Positions 4,660 to 46,289 of a stretch of 46,739 bases of DNA are shown piece after piece; position 1 is the stretch's first letter, and every line of letters starts with the position of its first letter. Both the position numbers and the translations under genes were made by a program. This stretch comes from Candidatus Methylacidithermus pantelleriae. Its GTDB lineage: Bacteria; Verrucomicrobiota; Verrucomicrobiia; Methylacidiphilales; Methylacidiphilaceae. The notes under the pieces were generated by a model that ran no database searches, had not been told where the DNA came from, and was given only the letters and a program-made list of their open reading frames with translations. Where the stretch lies: the NCBI RefSeq assembly GCF_905250085.1, contig NZ_CAJNOB010000008.1, positions 1-46,739 of the forward strand. The letters run 5' to 3'.

Positions 4660-5880
4660 TTACTGCTTGAAAAAGATGACTAAATCACTACCGATTGGGC
4701 CTGGCGTATTTCCCACTCCGCAGACAAAATCCGGTCCCGAGGAAAAAAAACCATTGATGTTCTTTGCGCCGCTAAGAACTTCCTGCCACGTTTTCCCGCC
4801 ATCCGAAGTCGCGAATACGGCCGCTCCTAATTGACGAAAGTCCGAATTGTCGACAGCCACATACCCACGGCCCAGAGAATCACACCAGAGCGCCTGGATT
4901 GGACGCCTCTCAGGGAAAGGCAGCTTAATCCAGCTCTCTCCCCCGTCCTTTGTGGCTAAAAGCACCCCATCCTCCAGGCCCATCCATCCCTGCCAGCTTG
5001 TCGAAAAGAAAATTGTTCGGGGCCTTGGAAGCTTTTCAAAAAAAGCCAGCTCCCTCCAAGACCGGCCCGAATCAGTACTTTTAAAAACTTGGGGCACTCT
5101 CCGGTGCCCCGAGCTGCCTGCACAGAGCACGTATACAACAAAGCCCGTTTCTATCCGGACATCGCCAGGGATCGCCGCTCGAATCCCGCCCAAGAAAGGG
5201 AGCGGCGCCCAGCTCTTACCTTGATCAAGGCTCCAATAGCTTGTGAAGTCCCCGCAAAGAACCATCCTCAGGTTACCTCTGCACACAAGGTCAGTAGCGC
5301 TCAAGAGCTTGCCAGGCAAAACTTCCGCCCATGAGCTCCCATCGTCCGTCGAATGCCAAAGCCAGGCTTTGGCTTGCCCGTGAATTCCTTCCAGAAGCCA
5401 GATCTCCCGTGAGCCGGTCATCTGCAGACGATAATAATTCAGTCCCCACCCAGGCCTCGGCTTTTTTGGGATCCAGGTCCAGCCTCCGTCTTGCGTTTGA
5501 AAGACCCCACTAGACCCACACACCCAGCCGACCTCCGCGTTCCAAAAAAAGACATCTCTGAGAGAACCTCGCCCCCCAGGGTTGCTGACCCGATAGCGAA
5601 ACGGAAATGTGGATGAGTTTGTAGCAACCTCACCCCCCTCCCTGCCTTGCCAATAGCCCTGACCGTTGCCTGGCTCGAACATCAACCAGGTAACAAGAGA
5701 GACCAGCAAAGGCAACGGTTTAAACAAACCCTTTGCCGTGTTGTCGACTGGAATCTGACCGCGTTCATTCCCGTAGTTATGGTCAGATTGAGTGAATGAA
5801 CGTAATGTTTTATTGCGTGAGACGGCCCTCCTTCCCTTCTCAGCTTGAATGGTCACTTTTATGCCTTCCCTCGAGGTCAC
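4660..5880 (-). CDS. YCF48/BNR-repeat beta-propeller protein, exported or membrane-anchored
   Basis: A 406-residue protein with six copies of the S/T-x-D-x-G-x-x-W (BNR/sialidase-type Asp-box) motif, for example QTQDGGWTW, STDDGSSW, SLDQGKSW, STDSGRSW, TKDGGESW and TSDGGKTW, spaced as blades of a propeller. This architecture is shared by YCF48/Hcf136-like proteins and by many secreted proteins of unknown role. A hydrophobic stretch (about residues 52-68, LFKPLPLLVSLVTWLMF) precedes the propeller and probably acts as a signal peptide or anchor. The start is a GTG with GGGGAG 11 bases upstream. The roughly 50 residues before the hydrophobic stretch are polar, low in recognisable structure and lie next to a decayed transposase, so the true start is uncertain. 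No glycosidase catalytic set is visible; a structural or binding role outside the cytoplasm is an inference. Confidence 0.8.
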   Translation of the reverse strand: MTSREGIKVTIQAEKGRRAVSRNKTLRSFTQSDHNYGNERGQIPVDNTAKGLFKPLPLLVSLVTWLMFEPGNGQGYWQGREGGEVATNSSTFPFRYRVSNPGGRGSLRDVFFWNAEVGWVCGSSGVFQTQDGGWTWIPKKPRPGWGLNYYRLQMTGSREIWLLEGIHGQAKAWLWHSTDDGSSWAEVLPGKLLSATDLVCRGNLRMVLCGDFTSYWSLDQGKSWAPLPFLGGIRAAIPGDVRIETGFVVYVLCAGSSGHRRVPQVFKSTDSGRSWRELAFFEKLPRPRTIFFSTSWQGWMGLEDGVLLATKDGGESWIKLPFPERRPIQALWCDSLGRGYVAVDNSDFRQLGAAVFATSDGGKTWQEVLSGAKNINGFFSSGPDFVCGVGNTPGPIGSDLVIFFKQ

Positions 5881-5989
5881 TTCTAAGGCGACTCCCCACC
5901 ATGGGCACGTCCCACCCTAACCACCGTTGGTTGTTTGGGTAGCTACGACGACCCTAGGTCATGACTCGCATTGCCTTGCTCACCGCTGT

Positions 5990-7581
5990 CGCTCAATCCA
6001 CCCCTCAAATGAGCCTTCCCCGTCTCCTTCTGTTAGCCCCAAAGACAATGGAAAAGTCCGACGGTCAGTTAAGGCATCTTTCGGTTTTGCGGACCCAGAA
6101 GCGCTTCTGGCGGTCTTTACAATAACCTTCCATGAGCGCACCCAGAAGCCACGTAAACCCTGTGCTACCGCCCAACTGGGAGAAAGGTTTGGCTCCGGTG
6201 CTTTTCGTCCCAATAGCTACTCGGGCAGCTACGGGTGGGCCGGCCCACACACGACTTTCCATGACGGAACAATGCTTTGGTTTCTCCTCGTTGCCGCCAT
6301 GATTATTAGGGTCCAGTACCTTTGACCATGAGGTCGACGCAGGTTTGCCCATCCTATCGACCCACCCCCAGAGACACGGTTGTTCGGCAACGTCAAGGAG
6401 TTGAGCAATGCGATAGAGCAGAGACTAAGCCGGGTCTGTCCGTATGTGCTGCCTCCCGTACCTTTCCCTGCCCTCCGTTTCCACTACCCGCTCGACCCAA
6501 CCGAACCTGCAGATTTGCCGCACTCGACTTTAGAGCAAGGTTGTGGCCAGGATTCCGAACACCGCAGCCTCTCCGGCCTGTCTTTGCTTTCTCCTGCAAC
6601 GTCTCCCAGAGCTGCCAAGCCCGCCAGGGAAATTCTACGCTCCTGGTCATTCTCCCACGCCTTTTGCTCCTTTCCACATTTCCGTCCGCACCGACCTCTA
6701 GACCCCTCCTCCTCAGATCTTTCTCCGAGCTCAACGGTACAATGGACCTCTCCGGCTCCCACCTGGGCCGCTCCGACCCCTCAAGAGGCAACAGTCGGAC
6801 CGTTTGGATCTAATCCAACCTCTCGACCAGGCGGTCCCTTGTCCTTGACACACATGCCCACGCCCGAGACCTCGGGGCGCCTTTCTGCAACGTACCTATG
6901 GATCTCCTACTCAGGGAAGCGTGGGCTATCGCTTTTCTCGCCCACACTCGGCACCCGCATTACTGGTTTTGAGGTCTTAGTAGAGCGTTCGCTTTCGTTA
7001 GGCCTCTTTGCCGACCCGCCCGCTTTCCGGGCTTTTGCCGAAGGCCTCAACCCCCATCTGCCGCCCCCGGTGCTTCCGCCAGAAGCCATAGTTACCCGGT
7101 GGGAACCCCTTCCTCCCCATTGGAAGATACACTCCTTTGACGGCGCACAACAGATGGCTGGCGCGCCAGCTTTCCTATTTCTGTTCCCATTGCCGCTTCC
7201 ACTCCAAGCGGCTTCAAGCACTCGGCCGAGAGAGCTCGTTGGCTTTTAGGCCTCAGCAAGAGTTCTAGTGCCCGTCAGATCTTTCATATGGAGAACCACC
7301 GATACCGCATGCGGCTCCTAACCTTGGCAACCTTGATATCCGTAGAACCGACCTCGGGTAGAATGTCCCGCGCCCGAAGGACCCGTTGCCTATGACCAGG
7401 CGGCGGTCCAACCCATCCGTGATCTGGGCGTGTATCTTGAGAGTTCTTCCATGGCTGCCTCCGTGGACTCTTGGATTGAAGGCTTGGCTCCTCGTCTCTC
7501 TAGCTCCGTCGAGGGATCGCCTACGCCTTTTGGTATATGTATATCAAACTCAACTCCGCTATCTGGGTTATGGTTCCGCAC
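5990..7581 (-). pseudogene. Decayed IS256-family transposase (copy A)
   Basis: Pieces of an IS256 (mutator-type) transposase can be read in the correct order across shifted minus-strand frames. From 7518 downward comes GDPSTELERRGAKPSIQEST, matching the family's N-terminal DPLTE.LR.GAR....A.EAEV block. Then RARDILPEVGSTDIKVAKVR (about 7375-7310) matches LPER.I.TG.GPV.VKVPKVR, and MGRKGFPPGNYGF (about 7125-7080) matches LYLKGISTGDF. AVAQGLRGFW (about 6171-6142) matches AVGDGALGFW and KRFWVRKTERCLN (6106-6065) matches QRCWVHKTANVLN, with the expected spacing of about 13 residues between these two. The second catalytic Asp is lost. The C-terminal third, with the catalytic Glu, is missing because the propeller gene begins at 5880. 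No intact terminal inverted repeats were recognised. Confidence 0.82.
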
Positions 7582-7668
7582 CTTCTTCTCTCCTTCCCAT
7601 TGTTGTCAAAGCCATCCGGGCAGGGCTCTCAAACACTGCAACACACCACTTTAAAGTAACAGCTCGAT

Positions 7669-10600
7669 TCATCGCTGGATCTCAAAAAGCCCCCACTGGG
7701 CAGGATCTATGGATGCCTCGGTAGCAACGTCGCTTACGATCCCTGTGCGTCGATTGGCCCAGAACATCCGTAACCGGTCGCTGGTCCCTGTCGGATCAGA
7801 GTAAATGATGCCAAAATCCCCCCAGTAAACCGAACCAGGGGTCAGATGCAGTCCAAGAGCAGCAAGAGGTAGGGCCGCATAGAGGGAATAGCCGTCAACG
7901 TCTCGCTCTAGCTCGATGCGAGCTTGTCGGATCATTTGAACTCGGTCAATCCGCGTAACTCCAATGGGAGAGGCAAACTCCACGGGTTCCTTCGTTCCCG
8001 CCTCCCGATAGCAATAGACGACCGCAATAGGTTTCCCCTGGTAGACACTCAAAACAAGGCGAAAATCTCCTTCAAGAACGGTTGACATTGGCCCAGACCG
8101 GCCTCTTCCGAGCTCAAAGACCGCACAGTCTCCCGTTTTAAACAGCCGAGTTGGATCATTACCCCGGTTAATCATGGGCGTTGGATCCTTTACTGATTGA
8201 AACCCGAGGTAAAGAAACCGGTCGTCAAACGTCCAGGCCGCCAAAGCGGAATGCCTTGGGTCAAAGGCCCATTGGGCCGTCCGCGTGGGAGAAGACCAGT
8301 TAAACAGCCGTTGGCTCGGGATACCTCCAGCTGACTCCTTCAAAGGAATGATCGAAAGGCGAGGCCGGGCTGCTTCTTCCGTGTTTGAACTACCCGCTCC
8401 AAGAAAAGATTGCGAAAGATAAAGAGGCTGCGATGGTAGCCGATGAATGCTCTCAAGCCCTTTAACCTGAGAAATGACGCAGCACTCCCGTGCCTCGGAA
8501 ACAGGTCCACAAAGGTAGTAAGCACCATCAATCGGATTCCGGAAAAACTGGCCGCCGAAAGGCTCCCCACCTGCAGTCGTCCCGTCCAGTCTTGCCCCAC
8601 GTATGATTCGCGAAGGCAGGGAATCGGGTGCAGCCCGGCAATCATGGAAGAGCGCAGCCACAAAGAGGCCATCAACCGTAAAGAGGTACCGTTCGCCCAT
8701 GTTGCCGCTCAGGCAGAAAACCTCCCCCACCTCCGGGCCTACATCTGCCGAACCCAGCACGTAGAGAGGACCAATCAAGCGGCCCGGGTGACTTTGAGGA
8801 GCGGTTACCGAGCCGTGCACTCCTGGCCAAGGATTGGGATACTGCCAGAGCACCTTCCCGTCCGGAGAGATCATCTCGAGAGGATCATGATTGACCAGTA
8901 AGTTTCCCCGAGAGTCAAACCAGCAGGAAGCCGCGTCAGGAACCGGTCGCCTTCGATCCACAAGGACCCGTCGAGCATCCTCAAGCCGGTACACGGGAGC
9001 CCCCACTGCACTCCACCCCGAACAGGGGATCCGCCAAACCGTCATCATTCCTTCTGTTTCCGCGACCCAGCCGATCGAAAAATCGGAAGCAACCGCTGGA
9101 AGCCAGCCACTGCGAAAATCAGGACCTCCTCGCTCCTCTTTGGAAAAGAACACGATCTCCTCTGCCTGGACGCGACCATCCCCATTCTGATCAACCCATA
9201 AAAACGTGTGGCGCAGCGGTCTTCCCCGGGCAGCCGCCTCCCGACGCATTACCCACCAGTAAGCATCCAATCGGCTCGCGCGCTGCCACCCCACACCCAG
9301 GAAAACTGACGGGAAGCGGGTCATCGCCCATTGTACATCGTCGCGATTGGAAAAGAGCCCCTCGCGAATCAACCGCGGAAGGGCTTCGTTTCCGCGCAAA
9401 AAAATGGAGACGTCCCCAAGGGCCACAAGGGGACGGGCCAGGCCACTCGGCTCCAGGCGGCTCACGGAAACAAAGTCGTGGGTTCCATTGATCCAAAAGA
9501 TTTCCGAGCCTTTCCGCAAAAAGCGGCTAATTCCATCGGGCGCTGGGCCAAAGAGGTCATCAGCATGTTGGGGCCTCCAGGGCGTGCCAGCAACCCGCCA
9601 CAAACCCCGCCTCCAGTCCAGATCGACCATATTCCCCGTGACGAACCCTCGCGTTGGAAAGAAAGAGTCAATCGCACACCCCATAGCGGCGTAGTAGGTT
9701 GTCCCGCAAAACTCCCGCAGCAATTGCCCTCGGCGGTTCCAAACGCTGATCCTACGCGGAGAGCTATCCCACTCGGCAACCCACAGTCTATCCAGCCCGT
9801 CGACCGCCAACCCCCAGGGCCGAAACATTCCATCCGGCTTGTAGGGACCGACGAGAGGCCTGCCTCCCGTCTGACCGATCGTCCGCAACAGCCGGCCAGT
9901 ATGGTCAAAAACCTTCACATTCATTTCCCGACCCCAGTCCGACACATAGATAGACGCGTCGGGTCCAGTCGCCAGTCCGATAGGAGCGGAAAGGCCTGAA
10001 ACGGAAACTGGGGTAATCCGGCCAGCCGCATCGATGCGCACCAAATGCCTATCACTGATCGCTAAGAGATCGCCGTTACTCGCAGTCGCCAGACCAGAAG
10101 GCCTTTCCAGGGGAATCTCGCCCAGAATCTTCCCTTCTCCATCGACAACGAGAACCTTGTCCTCAAAGTAGAGAGAGACGTAAAGCCGATTACCGCATCC
10201 CGCCAGGCCCATTGTCTGTCGCTGGCACCACGCAGGCCCAAGGCCTCCTTGCTCAATTGCCTCACCTTCGGGATTCCGGGGGGGTGGCGCTTTTTGGGGA
10301 TTAAAGCGGCCAATCACCCGAAAAAAGCTTCCGTCTCCGAAGGGAACCGGATCGCCATTATTGGGATTGTAGCGAACCAGCCGAATTTCCCCGGCCGGAA
10401 TTCCAGCAATGGAAGCGGAGAGAGCACCTCCCACCACCATATAAAGATATCTTCCCATCCGGGCGACAGGACCTCCGGCAATTCCACCAACCCCCCAGCA
10501 CTTCCTCCCGTCCTGGTCAAGAGCCATCAGGGCGCACGCCCCTTCCGCCATCGCAGCGGCAACATAGATCCGGTTGCGATCAGAAGCTACGAACATCGGG

Positions 10601-11724
10601 TTTTCGTGGTTGGACAGCCAACCGCCATGCCCGTCCAGCGTGATCCATGGTGGAACACCCGGATTCCCGTACGCAAAAACATACTCAAGATGAAAAGGCC
10701 CATGGTAGAGCCCCCGAACCGTGTAGTTTCCTGGAGGTAGTGCATTGCCCCAATCATCCCTCCCGTCCCAAAAATCCTGGTTCCAGCCCGCCTTTCGCGG
10801 GTAGTCGGCAATCAAGTTCCGCACCCTTCTTCCCTTCTCATCCTCGATTACCAGGGTGACAAAACCTTCGGAGGGAAGCTTGTAGACGATCGGAACGCTT
10901 CCCCTAGTGCTGAAACGCCCCGGAGCGCTCTCCGTCCTCGGGTTCCCTTCGCCCGTCACCCCGGATACCGGCGCAAGGTTCCCCTGGCGGACGAGCTCGA
11001 TCCTCCCCCAGGTTTGGGGTGCCTCCCAAAGGAAAGAGCGTTGGGGATTTTGGGCATCAATGAGATCCGCATAATGGTGTTGCGGCCAGCTCGAACCCTT
11101 TGGGCCGCCCCAGAAGAACTCCATGCCGCATCGGAACGAGTGTGCCGGAGCTACTCCGCTTTGGGTCAGCAGCTTCCACGGGATCGCAAGCTCCTGGACA
11201 TACCCCTGCCCCCCCGAAGCTTTTCGAAAAGCGACCTGAAGTCCAGCGGATCTTGCATCATTAAGGTCCCGGGCTCTAGAGTCCTCCTCCCACATCCCGT
11301 AATGGAGGCTCGCCCATGGACGCTTACGCTGGGTGTCGTACCAAGAGGTAAGGTGGACGATCTGATCAGTTTGAAAGCGAACCTGGACGGCGTCACCACG
11401 CCAGCCACCTTGGGGATCGAGATCCGGGTTGACCCAGTTTTCCATGGGCGTTGGATCGCGAAACCGGAAGGAGAGATAAAATGCGCTGTGATCGTACATC
11501 GCAGCCACCCGCACCGAATAGCGCTTCCGCAGCTTCGCCACGTCGTAGCAGGCTTCAATGGTCCCAGAGAGATCCCAGTCCCCCAGATCGCCATCAATCC
11601 GCACCGAACCTGGGGCTGGCACGGCGACCAGAATGTGGTTATCGGTCTGTTGCGCCAAGACCCCGGGCAGCCATCCAACAATGAGAAAAAAGACTTCCGC
11701 CAGCCTTAGGAGCGTCTTCCTCAT
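7669..11724 (-). CDS. Large secreted CBM9 / FlgD-Ig / NHL-propeller / CBM9 protein
   Basis: A 1351-residue protein starting with a typical signal peptide (MRKTLLRLAEVFFLIVGWLP, cleavage probably after GVLA). Domains in order: a CBM9-like carbohydrate-binding module (about 38-245, with IDGDLGDWDL and RDPTPMENW); a FlgD/Ig-like module (about 275-345, ending WGNALPPGNYTVRGL); a long region of NHL/six-bladed-propeller repeats (about 375-700, e.g. PSGLATASNGDLLAIS, APIGLATGPDASIYVSDWG, RPWGLAVDGLDRLWVAEW); an EF-hand-like calcium loop near residue 840 (DQNGDGRVQAEE); and a second CBM9-like module at the end (about 1180-1350) that repeats the DPTPM motif. Longer frames reach 11853, but the ATG at 11724 puts the signal peptide at the N-terminus. 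Such proteins are expected outside the cell. Binding of the polysaccharide made by this cluster is an inference; no hydrolase or lyase catalytic centre was recognised. Confidence 0.88.
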   Translation of the reverse strand: MRKTLLRLAEVFFLIVGWLPGVLAQQTDNHILVAVPAPGSVRIDGDLGDWDLSGTIEACYDVAKLRKRYSVRVAAMYDHSAFYLSFRFRDPTPMENWVNPDLDPQGGWRGDAVQVRFQTDQIVHLTSWYDTQRKRPWASLHYGMWEEDSRARDLNDARSAGLQVAFRKASGGQGYVQELAIPWKLLTQSGVAPAHSFRCGMEFFWGGPKGSSWPQHHYADLIDAQNPQRSFLWEAPQTWGRIELVRQGNLAPVSGVTGEGNPRTESAPGRFSTRGSVPIVYKLPSEGFVTLVIEDEKGRRVRNLIADYPRKAGWNQDFWDGRDDWGNALPPGNYTVRGLYHGPFHLEYVFAYGNPGVPPWITLDGHGGWLSNHENPMFVASDRNRIYVAAAMAEGACALMALDQDGRKCWGVGGIAGGPVARMGRYLYMVVGGALSASIAGIPAGEIRLVRYNPNNGDPVPFGDGSFFRVIGRFNPQKAPPPRNPEGEAIEQGGLGPAWCQRQTMGLAGCGNRLYVSLYFEDKVLVVDGEGKILGEIPLERPSGLATASNGDLLAISDRHLVRIDAAGRITPVSVSGLSAPIGLATGPDASIYVSDWGREMNVKVFDHTGRLLRTIGQTGGRPLVGPYKPDGMFRPWGLAVDGLDRLWVAEWDSSPRRISVWNRRGQLLREFCGTTYYAAMGCAIDSFFPTRGFVTGNMVDLDWRRGLWRVAGTPWRPQHADDLFGPAPDGISRFLRKGSEIFWINGTHDFVSVSRLEPSGLARPLVALGDVSIFLRGNEALPRLIREGLFSNRDDVQWAMTRFPSVFLGVGWQRASRLDAYWWVMRREAAARGRPLRHTFLWVDQNGDGRVQAEEIVFFSKEERGGPDFRSGWLPAVASDFSIGWVAETEGMMTVWRIPCSGWSAVGAPVYRLEDARRVLVDRRRPVPDAASCWFDSRGNLLVNHDPLEMISPDGKVLWQYPNPWPGVHGSVTAPQSHPGRLIGPLYVLGSADVGPEVGEVFCLSGNMGERYLFTVDGLFVAALFHDCRAAPDSLPSRIIRGARLDGTTAGGEPFGGQFFRNPIDGAYYLCGPVSEARECCVISQVKGLESIHRLPSQPLYLSQSFLGAGSSNTEEAARPRLSIIPLKESAGGIPSQRLFNWSSPTRTAQWAFDPRHSALAAWTFDDRFLYLGFQSVKDPTPMINRGNDPTRLFKTGDCAVFELGRGRSGPMSTVLEGDFRLVLSVYQGKPIAVVYCYREAGTKEPVEFASPIGVTRIDRVQMIRQARIELERDVDGYSLYAALPLAALGLHLTPGSVYWGDFGIIYSDPTGTSDRLRMFWANRRTGIVSDVATEASIDPAQWGLFEIQR

Positions 11725-14373: not shown

Positions 14374-15783
14374 CTATCTATTGGCTCCTTGGCCAACGCA
14401 TTCTGGAACCACCTGGAGATCCTCACAGGCTTTGGGATTCACAAGGCGATAGGTAAAATAGGCGATACCCGGCAAGAGTGTTAACACCTCCAGAGCAACC
14501 AGGGCGATCAGACTGCTCGGCTTTACGAGGATCACCAGGGCTGTCCGGAGAACAACCAAAAACGCGCTGGCAAAGCGATGGTCCGCCCTTCCTCGAGCCA
14601 CAAGCACGGTATCCAGACTCACGTAGGCGATGCCTTCTCCAGTATAGATGAGCGATAGAGCGAAAGCCCACGGATGAACAAGGCTATAATGGTGCCAATA
14701 ATGGCCAGCGGCAACATAGAGGCCCATAAGACCGCAGGCAAAGGCTCCGTAGCTAGCAAGCGAGGTTACCAGATAGTGGCAGGCCAACTTGTTCTGATTT
14801 TTCGCCGAGTGCTGAATGCAAAGACAACGTCCGACAAACTGGTTTATGGGACTCCAGAAAAAGACGATCAACCCCCGAACCTTTTGAAACACTCCGTAGG
14901 GCGCAATTTCGGCAGGGGTCGCAAAGTGGCTCGCTCCAAAAAGTGTGACGGTTGAAGCTAACCCCTCAAAGAGAACCCACACCATCGAAGGTGGCAGAAA
15001 TTTTCGAAGTTCTCGTCGAGCTGCCAAAATTTCAGCAAAAGAAGGGGGTTGGCCCTGCCGTAATCCCATCCCCACTGCCACGCCCCAAGTGAGGCACGCA
15101 GCTCCGACTTCGACAAAGACCAATGAAGGGCCCGACAGTCTTCCTTGCGTCCAGACAAGCAAGACAACTAGAACCAGGCGCGCAATCGAACCGAGTGACT
15201 GAACAAGAAAGAACACATTGAATCGCCCCTCCCCAAAAGCAAAGCAACCCGCCAGCTGTACACGCGCCTGCATTAGGCCCGCTGCGACAAAGCCAAGGAG
15301 AAAATAGGGATCTAGGCGCGGGTTTTGGTGAGACTGCCATTGAGCGAATAAAAAGCTCGCAGGAATCAAGACGGCCGCGATCGCAGGGACGATTGCCAGC
15401 GCGCACCGCCAGGAAGCCAACCGGTAGGCGGAAACCGTGGCAACCTTGCCCCGGGCAACCAGCACCTGGATGCTCGACCCAAGCCCCGCATCGAACCAAG
15501 TTGCGGCAAGAGTCTGGACCCCTTGTCCAACAGTGTACGCGGCAAAGACGCCGATGGGGGCATAAGCAACGACCAACAAGAGAGTAAGGGTGTTTCCCGC
15601 GTAAACCACCGCATTGCTCGAAAAAAGCTTCGCCAGATCCCAGCGATGCCGTCTCAGTCCATCGAAAATCCTTTTTAACACACGCTCTCCTGCCAGCTCC
15701 AAGCGACCTTTCCGACAGACTCGCCGAATGGAACCAAGCTCCCCCGCAATTGCGAAGGAATACGCATCAGCGACCCTATCCAC
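14374..15783 (-). CDS. Polysaccharide flippase (Wzx-like, MATE/MOP superfamily)
   Basis: A 469-residue polytopic membrane protein with roughly ten to twelve hydrophobic segments, for example near 55-85, 124-148, 160-182, 188-212, 220-241, 268-286, 300-320, 336-360, 370-395 and 403-446. The arrangement, length and position among glycosyltransferases fit Wzx-type flippases, which move lipid-linked repeat units across the inner membrane. No single motif proves it, as this family is poorly conserved in sequence. A soluble N-terminal tail of about 50 residues is longer than usual. The start is a GTG with GGAGG only three bases upstream, so the true start may differ. It follows the FkbM gene at a short distance (45 bases), suggesting co-transcription. 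Confidence 0.8.
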   Translation of the reverse strand: MDRVADAYSFAIAGELGSIRRVCRKGRLELAGERVLKRIFDGLRRHRWDLAKLFSSNAVVYAGNTLTLLLVVAYAPIGVFAAYTVGQGVQTLAATWFDAGLGSSIQVLVARGKVATVSAYRLASWRCALAIVPAIAAVLIPASFLFAQWQSHQNPRLDPYFLLGFVAAGLMQARVQLAGCFAFGEGRFNVFFLVQSLGSIARLVLVVLLVWTQGRLSGPSLVFVEVGAACLTWGVAVGMGLRQGQPPSFAEILAARRELRKFLPPSMVWVLFEGLASTVTLFGASHFATPAEIAPYGVFQKVRGLIVFFWSPINQFVGRCLCIQHSAKNQNKLACHYLVTSLASYGAFACGLMGLYVAAGHYWHHYSLVHPWAFALSLIYTGEGIAYVSLDTVLVARGRADHRFASAFLVVLRTALVILVKPSSLIALVALEVLTLLPGIAYFTYRLVNPKACEDLQVVPECVGQGANR

Positions 15784-18962: not shown

Positions 18963-20408
18963 TCAGCTCGTGTATCCGGCCGCATCGACCCTTAGCTGAT
19001 GAAATTCGGGCCGACCCAAGGTGGGCTGAAGCCCCAAGCTCGAACGTCGTCTTTGTAGTTGGCCATGGGCAACCTGACTCGCCGCAAGACAAAAACCTGC
19101 AAAAAGCCATACATACCCATGTACGCTCCCCTGTCCGGTTATTAATCCATAGAAAAGGTTAGGAGCAAGGAAACCCACAAGAATCATCGGCAACGGATTG
19201 CGCAGTTGACGTGCCGCCTTCTGCGCCCTCCAGCCTATGAACGCAAGAAGGCCACAACGGTAGGCGATATACAGCAGCCCAATTACCGGCCCTAATTCCG
19301 CAACATTCCGTGTCCAGCCTGCCTCCGCGTCGTAGGGTATTTGCCCCATACCCAATCTTAGTGCTGCATTCCCTGCAGAACCCAATCCGAATCCCAAAAA
19401 CGGAGTTTCATCCAAGACACGCCAAAACTGGCTCATATCGTACGCAATCCTGCGTACCATGAAAAATCCCCCTTCCGCTTCCGCCGCCCCAGTCCATCGC
19501 GTCACCATTGCATCAACCACCTCAGGAAAGACGTTCGTCACAAGGACCCAGCTGACTCCTCCGGCAAGAACGAGCAGCACAACAACATTAATGACCCGGC
19601 GGACATGATGAGGGGATCCAGTCCCCAAAACTGCAAAACCAAGCGTTATCAGCGCACCCAGGTAGGCCGACCTACTTCCGGAAACAAGGAGGTTGGTCAC
19701 CACCCCGACTGTGACAATCCAAAGGCTTCTCAGACTCATCGACCGATGGCAACGCGGTTGCATCCAGAAATAAAGCAAGAAAGCGACGCAACTTCCCACA
19801 AAGAGGCTCTGCCCCAGGGGGGCAGAAAAGGTTCCAGACGCGCGCACAATGTTTCCATATACTCCGAAGGCAACGAAAGCACTCTCGTCCTCTCCCATGC
19901 CGACATTGAGAGGGGAGCTGGCGGGAGCGTGGACTTGGAGCTGGCAAAGCAGCCCCATAGGAACGGAGAGATAGAGGGTCCGTCTAGCGATCTCCTCGAG
20001 CTCCTGTTTTCGTAGGACCCATTGGCAAACAAAAGCAAGCGGCAGGTAGAGAAAATAGTTCCGCCAGCCATAAGCAACCAACAAAGGCGATTGATCGAGG
20101 AACACGATCTGCAGAATGCCGATTCCAGCTCCCACAAGCGCTAGTGGAACCGCGAGCAGGAGCACTGGGGGGGGACGAGACCAAAATCCCATCCGTGCGG
20201 CCAAGAAATAAACAAGAAGAACCAGCGGATCCTTGAGAAAAAAAAGCGCCTTCTGCTGGCTGGGCAAGACCCACTTCCGAATCGCTCCCTCGAAGATGAG
20301 AAGCCAGTAGATCCAACTAATCAACCGGACGAGCAACAAGCGGTTACGCTCGGCTGCTGGAACCACAGGACCGCACCGAAGAGCTCTATGAAACGGAGAG
20401 GAGGTCAT
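18963..20408 (-). CDS. O-antigen polymerase/ligase-type membrane protein (Wzy-like)
   Basis: About 481 residues, highly hydrophobic with some ten or more membrane segments. Near the N-terminus it has WLLIFEGAIRKWVLPSQQ, close to the E-G-A-x-R-K-W-x-L-P motif common in a group of O-antigen ligase/polymerase-like proteins, and a large periplasmic loop followed by a GFGLGSAGNAA-type segment late in the chain. The inferred role is polymerising or ligating repeat units on the periplasmic side. The ATG at 20408 is preferred over a TTG at 20435; it overlaps the stop of the upstream glycosyltransferase gene by 23 bases, so the two genes are probably translated from one message. It is one of two polymerase-type proteins in the window. 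Confidence 0.85.
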   Translation of the reverse strand: MTSSPFHRALRCGPVVPAAERNRLLLVRLISWIYWLLIFEGAIRKWVLPSQQKALFFLKDPLVLLVYFLAARMGFWSRPPPVLLLAVPLALVGAGIGILQIVFLDQSPLLVAYGWRNYFLYLPLAFVCQWVLRKQELEEIARRTLYLSVPMGLLCQLQVHAPASSPLNVGMGEDESAFVAFGVYGNIVRASGTFSAPLGQSLFVGSCVAFLLYFWMQPRCHRSMSLRSLWIVTVGVVTNLLVSGSRSAYLGALITLGFAVLGTGSPHHVRRVINVVVLLVLAGGVSWVLVTNVFPEVVDAMVTRWTGAAEAEGGFFMVRRIAYDMSQFWRVLDETPFLGFGLGSAGNAALRLGMGQIPYDAEAGWTRNVAELGPVIGLLYIAYRCGLLAFIGWRAQKAARQLRNPLPMILVGFLAPNLFYGLITGQGSVHGYVWLFAGFCLAASQVAHGQLQRRRSSLGLQPTLGRPEFHQLRVDAAGYTS

Positions 20409-21420
20409 CGATGATTTGCAGGTAACGCTCCGCAATCACTCTACTCGTCAGGGGACGAAGGTGCGCGGGCGCATGCGCCAAAAGTTCCCGGAAGCGCTCT
20501 GGCTTCAAGACGAGTTCTTCAATCCTCGCCGCAAGCGCCCTCGCGTCTCCGTTTGGGAAGGTTAACCCACACGGACCGATGGCCGCTTTCAGGCCACCTC
20601 CTTCGGATCCAACTACTGCGCAGCCGCAGGCAATCCCCTCGACTGCAACGATTCCGAAGGGCTCCTGCCATATCGAAGGAACGACCAGTATCCGATGCTT
20701 TCGCATAAGCTGCGCCACTTCCTCACCCACCCGAAAACCTTCGAATTCCACCCAATCCTCCATCCCCAACTGGCGTACCCGTTCTTTCACCTCTGGCAAC
20801 ATCGGCCCATCGCCCACGAAAGTCGCACTAAGGTGGTGTCCTTTTTGCCGTAAAAGATCGAGAGCTTCGAGGAATAGAAGCGGCCCTTTCTCCTGGACCA
20901 TTCTCCCAACGAAGACGCAGTCTCGTGTCCGCTTTTCTTCCCCCGTGGTCCAAAAGATCTCCTCGTCGTAGGGGTTTGGCACAATCACGGAACTCACTGG
21001 CAAGTGTTGAGCAATCGCCTCGCTAATCGATACACAACAACCGACCCGCCGGAGAAGGCAACGAAAGGCTGCTCCCCGGACTGCCGAGAAGGAACACCAA
21101 GTTTGCACTGCCACCACAAAAGGCTTCCCAATCCCCAGAAGAGGCCAGCCAAGTCGCAAGCTGGGATGGTTTTGGAGGACGCATCGAGCGCTCGTTATTA
21201 AACGGACTACGGTGGCAGGAGACGGGCAACGAATTACAGGATAAGGGAAAGGCTCCTCCCCGTCGTATGGAGTTTCGGTAACGACGCTCACCAAGCGGCC
21301 GGCTTCCCGGAAACGCCGGGCCAGCATCTCCGTCACTGATTCGATCCCACCGATTCGCGGCCAAAAACTATAGCTCGTCAAGAGGATCTCGGTTTCCACA
21401 CCGCAAGGATCCCGACCCAT
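20386..21420 (-). CDS. Family 4 glycosyltransferase (GT-B)
   Basis: A 344-residue GT-B enzyme. The N-terminal glycine loop appears as PRIGGIESVTEMLARRF (21-37), the donor-domain entry as VFVGRMVQEKGPLLFLEAL (169-187), VGDGPM (202-207), and the retaining-family E-x7-E pair at E253/E261 in EPFGIVAVEGIACGCAVV. These are the features of Glycos_transf_1/GT4 enzymes that use nucleotide-sugar donors. The donor and acceptor cannot be told. The ATG is preceded by AAGG at seven bases. Its end overlaps the next gene (polymerase), and its start lies about 200 bases from the end of another GT4 gene. Confidence 0.93.
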   Translation of the reverse strand: MGRDPCGVETEILLTSYSFWPRIGGIESVTEMLARRFREAGRLVSVVTETPYDGEEPFPYPVIRCPSPATVVRLITSARCVLQNHPSLRLGWPLLGIGKPFVVAVQTWCSFSAVRGAAFRCLLRRVGCCVSISEAIAQHLPVSSVIVPNPYDEEIFWTTGEEKRTRDCVFVGRMVQEKGPLLFLEALDLLRQKGHHLSATFVGDGPMLPEVKERVRQLGMEDWVEFEGFRVGEEVAQLMRKHRILVVPSIWQEPFGIVAVEGIACGCAVVGSEGGGLKAAIGPCGLTFPNGDARALAARIEELVLKPERFRELLAHAPAHLRPLTSRVIAERYLQIIDDLLSVS

Positions 21421-26007: not shown

Positions 26008-27459
26008 TTATCCCAAAGTATTTTCCTTATTTGAATGAATCGCTCTTAAACAAGAGACACCACTGGCCGAAAAGGACCCGTTACTTACAAAATAATGATG
26101 AGATTTACCTTCTTTGAAGAAGCTCCATCCAGCACCCAAGAGAAGAGCAATATACAATTGGATCGCAGGAATTTGAAAAGGAAAGTCGAAAAAAGCATGG
26201 ATCGAAACCCCAAAGAGGGAGAGGATAATACCCCAACATACTTTTGAGCCTGACCGAAGGAACCTATGCACCCAGCCAACAAGCCCGCCCGCGTACCACA
26301 CAACCCAAACAATGAACCCCACCCACCCCCATTCAATAATCGTCTGAAGGTAATCCTCATGTGCTGTTTCCCAACGAAAGCCAGCCAGGCTACCAAGCCT
26401 TCCGAATTTGATTAACCCGAATACAGCTTCAAATGTTCCTGGTCCAAATCCCCAAAGGCCCGCCTTGCGAACAAGAAAAAGACAGGCTCTCCAAGCTGCT
26501 ACTCGGCCGGGATCCCAAAGAGACTGATGACGTTTCCAGGCTAAATCCCCGATTCCTGGGGAAACCAAAAGACCGATCCCAAGCACAAGGCCAAGGCTAG
26601 CCCCGTAAACAATCCATGAAAAGCCACGGCCAAGAATCAACCGCTCTCCGTGGCACTGACAAAGCCGGGCAATGATTGGGTAGAGCCCCCATCCCATCCA
26701 AAGCACTGCTGCAATGACAAGCGAACCCATCGACGCATTTACCAGAAGTCCGACAACCAAGATTAGCCAGGTGCAAGACCAGAAGGCGCGACCCAACCAC
26801 CCGCCCGGTTTTCCCAAGTGACGAAGAAGCTGGGCAAAGCAGGGGGGCCAAACCACGTTCAGAAATGCCCCCGCTGCACCGTGATAACGAAAAAAACCAA
26901 ACTCGGTTCCGATTTCGTTTCTCCTCCAGAGCCAAACAAGAAACGGATCCCGAAAAAGCCTGCCCCCTATCCCCACTAAACTCACAACACCCCCGACAAC
27001 TGCCATCCACAAAACCAGCCGTTCGCGCTCTTGATCCGGTAGAAACAAATCGCAACTTACAACGGACAGTCCCATGACAACTGTTACCCATCGCATCGTG
27101 TCGACCGACATCCCCGCATCAGCCGTCCCGGGGACCCAAGGACAAGCCTTGGCCACTGGAAGAATCACGTGAAGGTACGGCACGTACGTCCCCTCCGGAT
27201 TCGCGGCTATGGCCCAGCCCTGAAGAAGAAGAAACCCAGCACTCCCCCCAAGCAAAAAGGGAATCCTCGGAAGCCTTCCGGCCCAAAGATACTCCGCTAC
27301 CCTAACCAGGCAGGTCCCTGCACCCAACACAACAAGGATCGTTTTCCACGGTTCTCGTGTCGAACTGTAAAGACACGGACCTGCTACCATCGTCAGGAAA
27401 AGCAACCCCAAGGTAACTCTTGAATTCCTCACACCACAATTCCCCTTTTCCGCAAACAC
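26008..27459 (-). CDS. O-antigen ligase/polymerase family protein (Wzy_C)
   Basis: A 483-residue polytopic membrane protein with about ten to twelve hydrophobic segments. The Wzy_C/O-antigen ligase hallmark is visible late in the chain: GLWGFGPGTFEAVFG, followed about 20 residues on by TAHEDYLQTIIEWGWVGF, the conserved G-x-G-x-G-x-F and H-x-x-Y-L-x-x-x-x-E-x-G pattern of the periplasmic loop. It starts at a GTG with GAGGAG about eight bases upstream. Another GTG at 27432 with AGGGG is possible. It follows the epimerase gene by about 100 bases and is probably in the same operon. Whether it polymerises repeat units or ligates them to a lipid or protein cannot be told from sequence. Confidence 0.9.
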   Translation of the reverse strand: MFAEKGNCGVRNSRVTLGLLFLTMVAGPCLYSSTREPWKTILVVLGAGTCLVRVAEYLWAGRLPRIPFLLGGSAGFLLLQGWAIAANPEGTYVPYLHVILPVAKACPWVPGTADAGMSVDTMRWVTVVMGLSVVSCDLFLPDQERERLVLWMAVVGGVVSLVGIGGRLFRDPFLVWLWRRNEIGTEFGFFRYHGAAGAFLNVVWPPCFAQLLRHLGKPGGWLGRAFWSCTWLILVVGLLVNASMGSLVIAAVLWMGWGLYPIIARLCQCHGERLILGRGFSWIVYGASLGLVLGIGLLVSPGIGDLAWKRHQSLWDPGRVAAWRACLFLVRKAGLWGFGPGTFEAVFGLIKFGRLGSLAGFRWETAHEDYLQTIIEWGWVGFIVWVVWYAGGLVGWVHRFLRSGSKVCWGIILSLFGVSIHAFFDFPFQIPAIQLYIALLLGAGWSFFKEGKSHHYFVSNGSFSASGVSCLRAIHSNKENTLG

Positions 27460-36760: not shown

Positions 36761-37654
36761 TTAAAAGATCTCTGTGTACCCGACGAAACCCTGCAACGTG
36801 AAAGCCGTCACGCCTGGCCCTGGCGTGGCCCCCACGTAGAGATCGATTCCCTCGTCCGGAAACGCAGGCACTGAAATCCATTTCGTGACTCTCCCCGCAA
36901 AAACATTTCCATTCATGTCCATCCCCGGAAACACCGCAACCGGATTGTTCATCGAGTTGGGGAGCGTGGCAGTGGTATTCGAGAAAAATCTCGGTACTCC
37001 CCAGCAGTTGAAGATTGTACATACCGTGCTGTTCAGAGTAAAATCCGTCCCATTGGAGACATCGGCCACATACTGCCATTCCAAACCATCGCCTCCCCCA
37101 AAATTCGTCCGTGCCTCACCAGCATGTCGAACCGTGAAATCCCACGAGCTCATCGAGCCTCCTGTTATTGAAGCCGCCGTAAACATCAATTGCACAATGT
37201 ATCCTTGCGCAAGAGTCCCTGGACCATTCGTATGGATCCTCGTCTGGCTGCGACCCGACGTCCCCGTTAGGCTAAAAGGAGTGTATAAAAGCGTCCCTAA
37301 GATTGGACCCACCGCCGGCCGCTGTTTCAGAAACGAAATGACTGCAACGTTAGGCACGTTCGAAGTGTTGATTTGATGAATAAGAATTTCGATCGTCGTT
37401 CCCAGAAAATAGTTACAAAATACAAAAGTTTTTATACCTGGATCTACCTGGGGATAATACCCTGAGAGATCAAGGAAAACCGTTCCCGCGTCGATGCTGC
37501 TACGGATATCAAAGCGCACGACTCGGTTGCTGTTCCACAAAATCCACGGATAGACATCTTGGACGACAATCGTAACCCGATTTCCTGGCACCAAGTCATT
37601 CGCATCTAGATAAACAGTTACCTGATCCCTGTCTGGTGTGACAACTTGATTCAT
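36761..37654 (-). CDS. Unrecognised 297-residue beta-rich protein
   Basis: I do not recognise this protein. It is 297 residues long, starts at an ATG without a clear ribosome binding site, has no signal peptide or membrane helix, and is rich in Val, Thr, Asn, Gly and aromatic residues with few charges, a composition typical of beta-sandwich proteins. Segments such as VTVYLDANDLVPGNRVTIVV, TVFLDLSGYY and GYIVQLMFTAASITGGSMSS alternate polar and hydrophobic residues. It has four Cys. Compared with neighbours it is poor in Lys and Glu, so it may have a different origin. It is isolated, with about 450 bases below and 940 above. It could be a surface or chain-binding protein, or unrelated cargo; nothing in the sequence decides. 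Confidence 0.75.
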   Translation of the reverse strand: MNQVVTPDRDQVTVYLDANDLVPGNRVTIVVQDVYPWILWNSNRVVRFDIRSSIDAGTVFLDLSGYYPQVDPGIKTFVFCNYFLGTTIEILIHQINTSNVPNVAVISFLKQRPAVGPILGTLLYTPFSLTGTSGRSQTRIHTNGPGTLAQGYIVQLMFTAASITGGSMSSWDFTVRHAGEARTNFGGGDGLEWQYVADVSNGTDFTLNSTVCTIFNCWGVPRFFSNTTATLPNSMNNPVAVFPGMDMNGNVFAGRVTKWISVPAFPDEGIDLYVGATPGPGVTAFTLQGFVGYTEIF

Positions 37655-44942: not shown

Positions 44943-46289
44943 TTAAAAAAAAACCTCCACCGATACTCCCCCTTGCCAGTCTTCCACAACCGCAGGAATT
45001 TCAAATTGTGACCACCGGATAAAGACGCGCAATTTGTACCGATCTTCGAAACTGTAGGCGAGTTCAGGCCACGCTCCAAATACGCGAGCTTGAGCAGTTA
45101 GCAGAGGAAGACTCCGGTTCGTGGTAAAGTAGGACAGTTCCTGTGCGATCCCATAGACGCTTGCCATCCATCGCTCTGACAGTTTCCAGCCTAACCGGAT
45201 TTCACCGCCGGTTACGATAAAATCTTGCGAACCAAAAAGAAGCGAGGGATCAAAGTCTCGGTAACCCCGAAAGTCTAGCAGGATCTTTTCGGTTGGGACA
45301 TAGCGGCACCCAAGGCTAAACACACCAATGGTCTTTTGCACCCCGCCAGTCGTCGCCAAAAAAGCAACTCCACCACCTGCAGTTAGGGAAGTCTTTGGCC
45401 CATATTGGTAGACGATTCTCCCACCCACGGTTTGCCAATCTTGTTGTGGGTTGGCCACCTGATGAAGCACTCCTGCTCGACCGTATATGCCGATCTGAGT
45501 TTTGGCAAAGGCCTGGTAGAGAACCCCGCCTCCGATTCTTTCTTTTTTAACGTCAGGAATCCCCGAATCAAAATTATAGATCTCGTACGCACCATCCCAA
45601 TCCAGTCGAATTCGTGGAGTGATATCATAAGTGGTACGGACCATGATGGGCATGTACTCGGCGTGCGTGGTCACAAGCCTTAAAACTTCTGGAAGAGCAA
45701 CGACCGGAAGCGGTGCTACGGCAAAGGTAGACAAATCCTGAACCCCTAGGAGATATTTCTGATAGCCTCCAGAGAGTTCGAATCGCAATTTTTCTGTAAT
45801 CCATGCTCCATTTAACAGGACCGAACGGTTGAAGTAATCGAGGTCTCCGTGATCCCAGTAGAGAACTCCCCCTGGAGCGGCCAGTAAAGACAAGTAGGTT
45901 CGTTTTTTTTCCCTGGTATCTCCTAGACCAAGAAGAAAGCCCCCGTTTACCCTCGTTACAAAATCGCCTACCAGGTCGCGAAATCGGCCAAAGATGTTAC
46001 TGTCATAGTAGGTATCAACTTGAAGGTCGCAATCCAGGTTAAGCCAATCGACTCGCAGGAGACTTTGTGCTTTCTGAAACTCGGAAGATTCTCTGGTTAT
46101 TGGTAGTGGTCCTTCCGTAGAACCTAGCCCTGGGACGGCCTCAGTGGTCGTGCTTAGATCCAAAGGGCTAGCCCGCTGAAGCGGCCCGAAGAAGTAGAAC
46201 GCGAGCGCAAAGAGGGAAGAAATCCTCCAGGGTCTCAAAAGGAGATACCCAAAATTCCTCTGCCAGGCTTCTTGCCCGTTCTCCCGCAT
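44943..46289 (-). CDS. Outer-membrane beta-barrel protein of the polysaccharide cluster
   Basis: A 448-residue protein. It begins with a probable signal peptide (about 1-42, hydrophobic ISSLFALAFYFFG), then a short linker and from about residue 75 a long series of amphipathic strands rich in Tyr, Trp and Gly, with VDTYYDSNIFGRFRD at the first strand, the D/Y-D-S/D-N-I/V-F motif of outer membrane beta-barrel (BBP2_2-like) proteins found in exopolysaccharide loci. It ends in VEVFF, with the C-terminal Phe typical of proteins inserted by the BAM machinery. The gene follows the tyrosine kinase by 77 bases, so both likely form one transcript. A role in secretion or anchoring of the polysaccharide is inferred. 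The last codons and stop lie in a run of nine T, a place prone to slippage. Confidence 0.85.
   Translation of the reverse strand: MRENGQEAWQRNFGYLLLRPWRISSLFALAFYFFGPLQRASPLDLSTTTEAVPGLGSTEGPLPITRESSEFQKAQSLLRVDWLNLDCDLQVDTYYDSNIFGRFRDLVGDFVTRVNGGFLLGLGDTREKKRTYLSLLAAPGGVLYWDHGDLDYFNRSVLLNGAWITEKLRFELSGGYQKYLLGVQDLSTFAVAPLPVVALPEVLRLVTTHAEYMPIMVRTTYDITPRIRLDWDGAYEIYNFDSGIPDVKKERIGGGVLYQAFAKTQIGIYGRAGVLHQVANPQQDWQTVGGRIVYQYGPKTSLTAGGGVAFLATTGGVQKTIGVFSLGCRYVPTEKILLDFRGYRDFDPSLLFGSQDFIVTGGEIRLGWKLSERWMASVYGIAQELSYFTTNRSLPLLTAQARVFGAWPELAYSFEDRYKLRVFIRWSQFEIPAVVEDWQGGVSVEVFF

Follow-up and report, generated by a model that had tools for sequence, protein, structure and literature searches.

The window analysed here, a stretch of 46,739 nucleotides, is the entire contig NZ_CAJNOB010000008.1 of the 2.46-Mb, 71-contig genome of Candidatus Methylacidithermus pantelleriae. 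Its minus strand encodes, at positions 7669-11724, a protein of 1351 residues, hereafter the target, which from the N- to the C-terminus consists of a CBM9 module, a FlgD Ig-like module, an NHL/PQQ-type propeller with an EF-type loop, and a CBM9-like module. We judge the chances to be about even that the target is an accessory factor, secreted and probably without catalytic activity, for the polysaccharide of the surrounding Wzx/Wzy-type locus, with a YCF48-like protein as its partner. Since it is kept only in relatives that keep the matching synthesis genes, binding or handling the polysaccharide of this locus is its most likely role. The components of the target are known individually; no description appears to exist of the conserved pair or of its link to synthesis.

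Presence and gene order in related genomes

The presence pattern covers 13 Methylacidiphilaceae genomes, of which G001-G012 carry genus names inferred by kinship. The genes concerned lie in the window as follows.

7669..11724, minus: target gene, 1351 residues, 149.6 kDa (open frame, translation, Pfam, orthologues)
4660..5880, minus: YCF48-like secreted BNR propeller, the conserved partner (PSII_BNR, 1.1e-12)
14374..15783, minus: Wzx (flippase)-like polytopic membrane protein (topology and sequence pattern only)
18963..20435, minus: Wzy/O-antigen-ligase-like membrane protein, HpsL-like (Wzy_C 22.0 bits; HpsL 8.3e-11, below cut-off)
20386..21420, minus: GT4 glycosyltransferase (Pfam), adjoining the Wzy-like gene in several related loci as well

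An intact target is found in eight of the 13 genomes (G000, G001, G003, G005, G007, G008, G009 and G011, the last split by contig ends), and exactly the same eight carry the Wzx-like and Wzy-like genes. Such a co-presence (8/8 versus 0/5) has a chance of 1/1287, kinship ignored. The YCF48-like gene occurs in these eight genomes and in G002, where no more than the final 282 residues of the target survive (L029:8549-9400), joined to unrelated sequence and with an intact YCF48-like gene beside them. G002 is devoid of the Wzx-like and Wzy-like genes and shows, upstream of the remnant and on the opposite strand, a frame that we read from its sequence as rmuC-like. The remnant is consistent with a protein that becomes useless once the genes for polymer synthesis are lost.

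In five Methylacidiphilum genomes, the target stands among glycosyltransferases and Wzx-like, YCF48-like, GT2 and methyltransferase genes in a conserved order, with reading frames that nearly touch or overlap in some of the loci. Local rearrangements are seen in G005 and G009, the Wzy-like gene of the latter being located about 8 kb farther away. The orthologue of G011 (M. cyclopophantes) is recovered as two pieces at contig ends, the 5' part on contig C119 together with Wzx-like and Wzy-like genes, and the 3' part on contig C231 adjoining the YCF48-like gene. In G008, the Wzx/Wzy-like genes lie on a different contig from the target and the YCF48-like gene, which share one. Thus the siting of the target in a polysaccharide-biosynthesis locus, as proposed in the original prediction, was borne out, the gene being tightly linked to this locus in related genomes; its Methylacidiphilaceae orthologues sit inside the locus, and the possibility that homologues always lie outside polysaccharide loci is thereby set aside.

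The link to the YCF48-like gene had not been noticed in that prediction. Wherever gene order can be read, this gene is beside the target or a few genes off, including in G147, a genome from elsewhere in Verrucomicrobiota whose full-length orthologue (48% identity) overlaps it. In the tree, the seven Methylacidiphilaceae sequences group with that of G147 in a fully supported clade separate from the paralogues. Among 198 genomes of the class of G147, a close YCF48-like relative was found only in G147 and in a second genome, as a contig-edge match. The pair therefore stays together over a long distance, in a polysaccharide setting that is not always biosynthetic. The family profile of the YCF48-like protein matches HCF136/Ycf48 structures (HCF136, 2.6e-13) and supports the fold family, the score against the Ycf48 equivalog model (54.7 bits) falling below its cut-off of 326. 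In G008 and M. cyclopophantes, the orthologous target and YCF48-like genes nearly touch, unlike those of the window, which are separated by about 1.8 kb (5881-7668) with no convincing gene, no similarity to related loci and no meaningful repeats. In G007 (L026:4217-7916), the target is intact, and splits or truncations affect each of three other genes (glycosyltransferase, Wzx-like and YCF48-like), which may reflect sequencing errors or recent decay.

Around the pair, the window locus also holds HpsL-like and WcaF-like genes, several GT4 transferases, a GT2 and the Wzx-like protein, which gave no family or PDB match. Two differing Wzy/ligase-like membrane proteins are encoded on the contig, at 26008-27459 and 18963-20435 (minus), which suggests either that a polymerase is accompanied by a ligase or that two polysaccharide clusters have merged. 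The Wzy_C scores of the two candidates (22.0 and 29.0 bits) are both under the cut-off of 31.7, and because the Wzy_C and HpsL matches are below cut-off, these candidates are called Wzy-like. A 297-residue protein within the locus (36761-37654, minus) has no Pfam or NCBIfam match. At the locus edge, a 448-residue protein (44943-46289, minus) has a signal-like N-terminus, matches no family and looks from its sequence like an outer-membrane barrel.

Gene and domain architecture of the target

The original prediction placed the protein at 7669-11724 with the strand unstated; the gene was confirmed there, on the minus strand. It starts with ATG at 11724 and stops at 7669 (1351 codons plus the stop), and the plus strand of the same interval has many stops and no open frame. 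The frame is open further upstream to GTG 11853; ATG 11724 was taken as the start because the signal peptide comes right after it and orthologues begin at about the same place. The frame is considered real because 20 shuffles of the window gave stop-free runs of at most 315 codons, against 1351 in the target, and because differences from the nearest relative concentrate at third codon positions (0.24/0.18/0.55 for the first, second and third positions). In G147 and six other Methylacidiphilaceae genomes than its own, respectively outside and inside the family, the protein is conserved over its full length at 48-68% identity. No paralogue was found in its own genome and no relative in viral contigs; the window contains neither Rfam matches nor tandem repeats. 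The parts of the protein are distributed as follows.

11653..11724, minus: signal peptide MRKTLLRLAEVFFLIVGWLPGVLA, residues 1-24, AxA-type cleavage, no lipobox cysteine (sequence and hydropathy)
10975..11643, minus: N-terminal CBM9, residues 28-250 (PF06452)
11401-11403 and 11026-11028, minus: clamp residues W108 and W233 of the N-terminal CBM9, respectively
10690..10917, minus: FlgD Ig-like module, residues 270-345 (PF13860; FlgD crystal structures)
9565..10692, minus: NHL-type propeller blades, residues ~345-720 (NHL match; profile against NHL structures)
9157..9198, minus: EF-hand-type calcium loop WVDQNGDGRVQAEE, residues 843-856 (DxNxDGxxxxxE pattern)
8395..9147, minus: further PQQ-like blades, residues ~860-1110 (profile match)
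7672..8349, minus: C-terminal CBM9-like module, residues 1126-1351 (hhalign, PF06452 in homologues, AlphaFold2/Foldseek)

The N-termini of orthologues resemble the signal peptide region of the target, and hydropathy gives no membrane segment after the signal peptide. Secretion as a lipoprotein was rejected for want of a lipobox, and a C-terminal sorting tag was also rejected, as none was seen in the protein.

The N-terminal module matches CBM9_1 (PF06452) at residues 69-245 with 25.6 bits (cut-off 23.4), and its family profile aligns end to end (residues 7-187) with TmCBM9-2 (1i82) at an E-value of 7.8e-9. In the profile alignment, W108 and W233 correspond to Trp71 and Trp175 of TmCBM9-2, which form a sugar clamp in that protein (PMC8280721). 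Both tryptophans are kept in all eight aligned orthologues, including that of G147, and W108 accompanied by an aromatic residue at position 233 is found in 21 of the 22 family members having the N-terminal module. The FlgD_ig match (PF13860) at residues 287-336 reaches 30.3 bits for a cut-off of 27 and recurs in 24 of 25 family members scanned. A family profile built from 25 relatives finds crystal structures of FlgD (e.g., 7eh9, 2.3e-8) as well as those of CBM9 and NHL propellers.

In the propeller, Pfam detects NHL at residues 635-652 (25.5 bits, cut-off 20), a repeat present in 21 of the 25 members scanned, and the family profile matches the NHL propeller of TRIM71 and designed Pizza propellers with E-values down to 6e-36. 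For residues 690-1125, the profile search points to PQQ propellers, with 1.5e-6 as the best value. Between these two sets of blades, WVDQNGDGRVQAEE has the canonical ligand pattern and is a predicted calcium-binding EF-type loop; 39 of 41 family members have all three of D845, D849 and E856. The polar residues E394, E651, Y678 and E1054 are invariant across these 41 members and R658 is also highly conserved. The AlphaFold2 model of residues 270-1351, made from a three-sequence input, had a predicted local distance difference test score (pLDDT) of 41 and a predicted template modelling score (pTM) of 0.36, and no fold was read from it.

Pfam does not detect the C-terminal module of the target as CBM9. 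The C-terminal modules of 18 of 34 homologues do match PF06452 (best 1.7e-12), and hhalign aligns the profiles of both modules over 200 columns with a probability of 99.2%. Its AlphaFold2 model is of moderate quality (pTM 0.73, pLDDT 68), with 1i82 as the top Foldseek match (1.7e-7) and VIA Z scores of 11.2 and 12.2 against CBM9 crystal structures. According to this model, the module has a CBM9 fold, so that a structure prediction devoid of CBM9 folds, which would have spoken against the proposed architecture, was not obtained. The first clamp position is occupied by F1195; nearly all members have Phe there, two have Tyr and none has Trp. The second position has in the target neither Trp nor any other aromatic residue. 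The module is called CBM9-like because it lacks the two clamp aromatics. Its invariant residues are R1222, R1319, D1332, E1336 and W1344, and it is better conserved than the N-terminal module despite the missing clamp. Of the two CBM9-like modules initially proposed, both folds were thus retained, whereas the idea of two binding modules was not, the clamp tryptophans being confined to the N-terminal one. For the rest, the predicted domains and their order are supported by Pfam, by profile searches and by the structure prediction of the C-terminal module.

The complete order CBM9-FlgD-propeller-CBM9 is named by no library, and the original prediction knew of no named family with it; it is not unique to the target, being shared by 22 of 41 sampled members across Verrucomicrobiota, the others having the N-terminal module absent or replaced. 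Many copies of the family occur in the heterotrophic relatives G033, G021 and G034. In these genomes of the same taxonomic order (about ten copies in G033; L034-L049 and L052), paralogues of the propeller-CBM9 core are expanded, some of them in tandem.

Proposed role and competing explanations

According to its sequence, the target is exported by its signal peptide and has neither a membrane nor a lipid anchor. From the conserved W108/W233 clamp, we infer that the N-terminal CBM9 would grip a chain end or a segment of the polymer. A rigid platform may be built jointly by the FlgD Ig-like module, the C-terminal module and the propeller that bears the calcium-type loop, and the clamp-free C-terminal module, with its own invariant residues, would more likely pack on this platform, on a partner or on another ligand. 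The target would act by contact with the YCF48-like secreted propeller to which its gene is linked, and the pair may hold the polymer in place, give it order or direct its path, either on the cell surface or in the periplasm. A matrix-protein role, as suggested in the original prediction, may apply. The glycoside hydrolase, sulfatase or polysaccharide-lyase genes beside some distant relatives are consistent with polysaccharide as a shared class of ligand.

Several points weigh against this reading. The co-occurrence may be the plain loss of one linked block, with few independent events. The names Wzx and Wzy rest on weak evidence. In G147, the pair adjoins a DUF1961/DUF6250 protein and a heparinase/alginate-lyase-like protein, with no biosynthesis genes beside it, and a search of G147 and three other genomes, run without a positive control, gave no Wzy-like match. 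The Trp pair does not guarantee binding either, as CBM9.2 possesses it and shows no detectable binding (PMC8280721). Finally, E394, E651, R658, Y678 and E1054, together with the invariant set of the C-terminal module, leave room for an active site.

This last point leads to the reading of the target as a polysaccharide-modifying enzyme (a lyase, a hydrolase or similar) that trims or edits the polymer with an unrecognised propeller active site, which we regard as rather unlikely. Biosynthesis loci often include their own depolymerase, propeller polysaccharide lyases exist, and CBM9 modules are usually attached to enzymes. Four of the conserved polar residues are invariant, and the neighbours of G147 and of some distant paralogues point the same way. 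The distant members examined have GH95, GH2, GH5-like, sulfatase or DUF6785 genes among their neighbours, besides unrelated or unrecognised ones, and do not adjoin Wzx/Wzy genes. However, catalysis is already supplied in the paralogue loci by these neighbouring enzymes, and the absence of a recognised catalytic site, noted from the start, was upheld, as Pfam, NCBIfam and PDB profiles give no lyase or hydrolase catalytic domain in the target. In our own reading, E651 may be structural because NHL blades are usually acidic at that position.

YCF48 is an assembly factor in photosynthesis, and by analogy the target and its partner could form a periplasmic scaffold for assembly or export, docking on the polymerase/flippase or on an outer-membrane exporter and steering the chain outward. 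Both proteins are exported, their genes are adjacent to each other and near the Wzx-like gene in most Methylacidiphilum loci, and co-presence with the Wzx/Wzy-like genes is strict. Such a scaffold is nevertheless unlikely, as the pair of G147 lies beside polysaccharide-lyase genes without a visible synthesis locus, and G002 keeps the YCF48-like gene after the Wzx/Wzy-like genes have gone. The target could also be a drifting secreted member of a large Verrucomicrobiota family, present in the locus by chance and without functional tie to polysaccharide. Distant paralogues, which are common throughout Verrucomicrobiota, do occur in many contexts, and several Methylacidimicrobium-like genomes dispense with the target. 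This is very improbable given that gene order is kept between genera at about 50% identity and that the target decayed in G002, which lost the Wzx/Wzy-like genes yet kept the partner.

Known systems and meaning for the family

The closest known modules are those of the xylanase proteins TmCBM9-2 (1i82) and CkCBM9.3 (7nwn). The N-terminal module shares with them a whole-domain profile match and both clamp tryptophans, and the C-terminal one the same predicted fold (Z 10.6-11.2), whereas in the target the modules flank a propeller with no recognised catalytic domain and the C-terminal module has no clamp. Sas6 of Ruminococcus bromii and BACUNI_03838 (4jpq), surface or putative proteins that bind carbohydrate, are likewise secreted and built with CBM9-fold modules (Z 8.2-12.2 for the C-terminal module) but lack the NHL propeller and the FlgD module; their context is starch or diet glycans. 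NHL blades are shared with TRIM71 and with ScyE and ScyF of scytonemin clusters, the nearest NCBIfam names for the target (2.8e-5 and 1.2e-4, far below cut-offs). In these, the NHL stretch alone matches, the models having no CBM9, FlgD or EF loop. The partner resembles YCF48/HCF136 of photosystem II assembly as a secreted BNR propeller, whereas its host is a methanotroph without photosystems and its gene belongs to a polysaccharide locus. With its HpsL-like, WcaF-like, GT4, GT2 and Wzx-like genes, this locus recalls the Wzx/Wzy loci of hormogonium polysaccharide (HpsL) and colanic acid (WcaF-like), for which we know of no reported secreted CBM9-propeller member.

In the open-licence literature, nothing was found on a YCF48-like protein together with exopolysaccharide, and the parts of it consulted yielded neither the conserved pair with its tie to synthesis genes nor a protein of CBM9/FlgD/NHL architecture. 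A broader proposal, which we consider tentative and doubtful, is that the CBM9-propeller-CBM9 protein and the YCF48-like protein constitute an undescribed two-protein secreted machine for the cell's own polysaccharide, in polymer-making and polymer-degrading Verrucomicrobiota, with the distant relatives as a broad unnamed class of polysaccharide-handling propellers.

The open-licence papers searched contain hardly any description of the extracellular polysaccharides that acidophilic verrucomicrobial methanotrophs make. A protein that tracks one polymer locus offers a means to locate, isolate and label that polymer. The target family seems to tie polysaccharide synthesis in some Verrucomicrobiota to polysaccharide breakdown in others via one unusual architecture.

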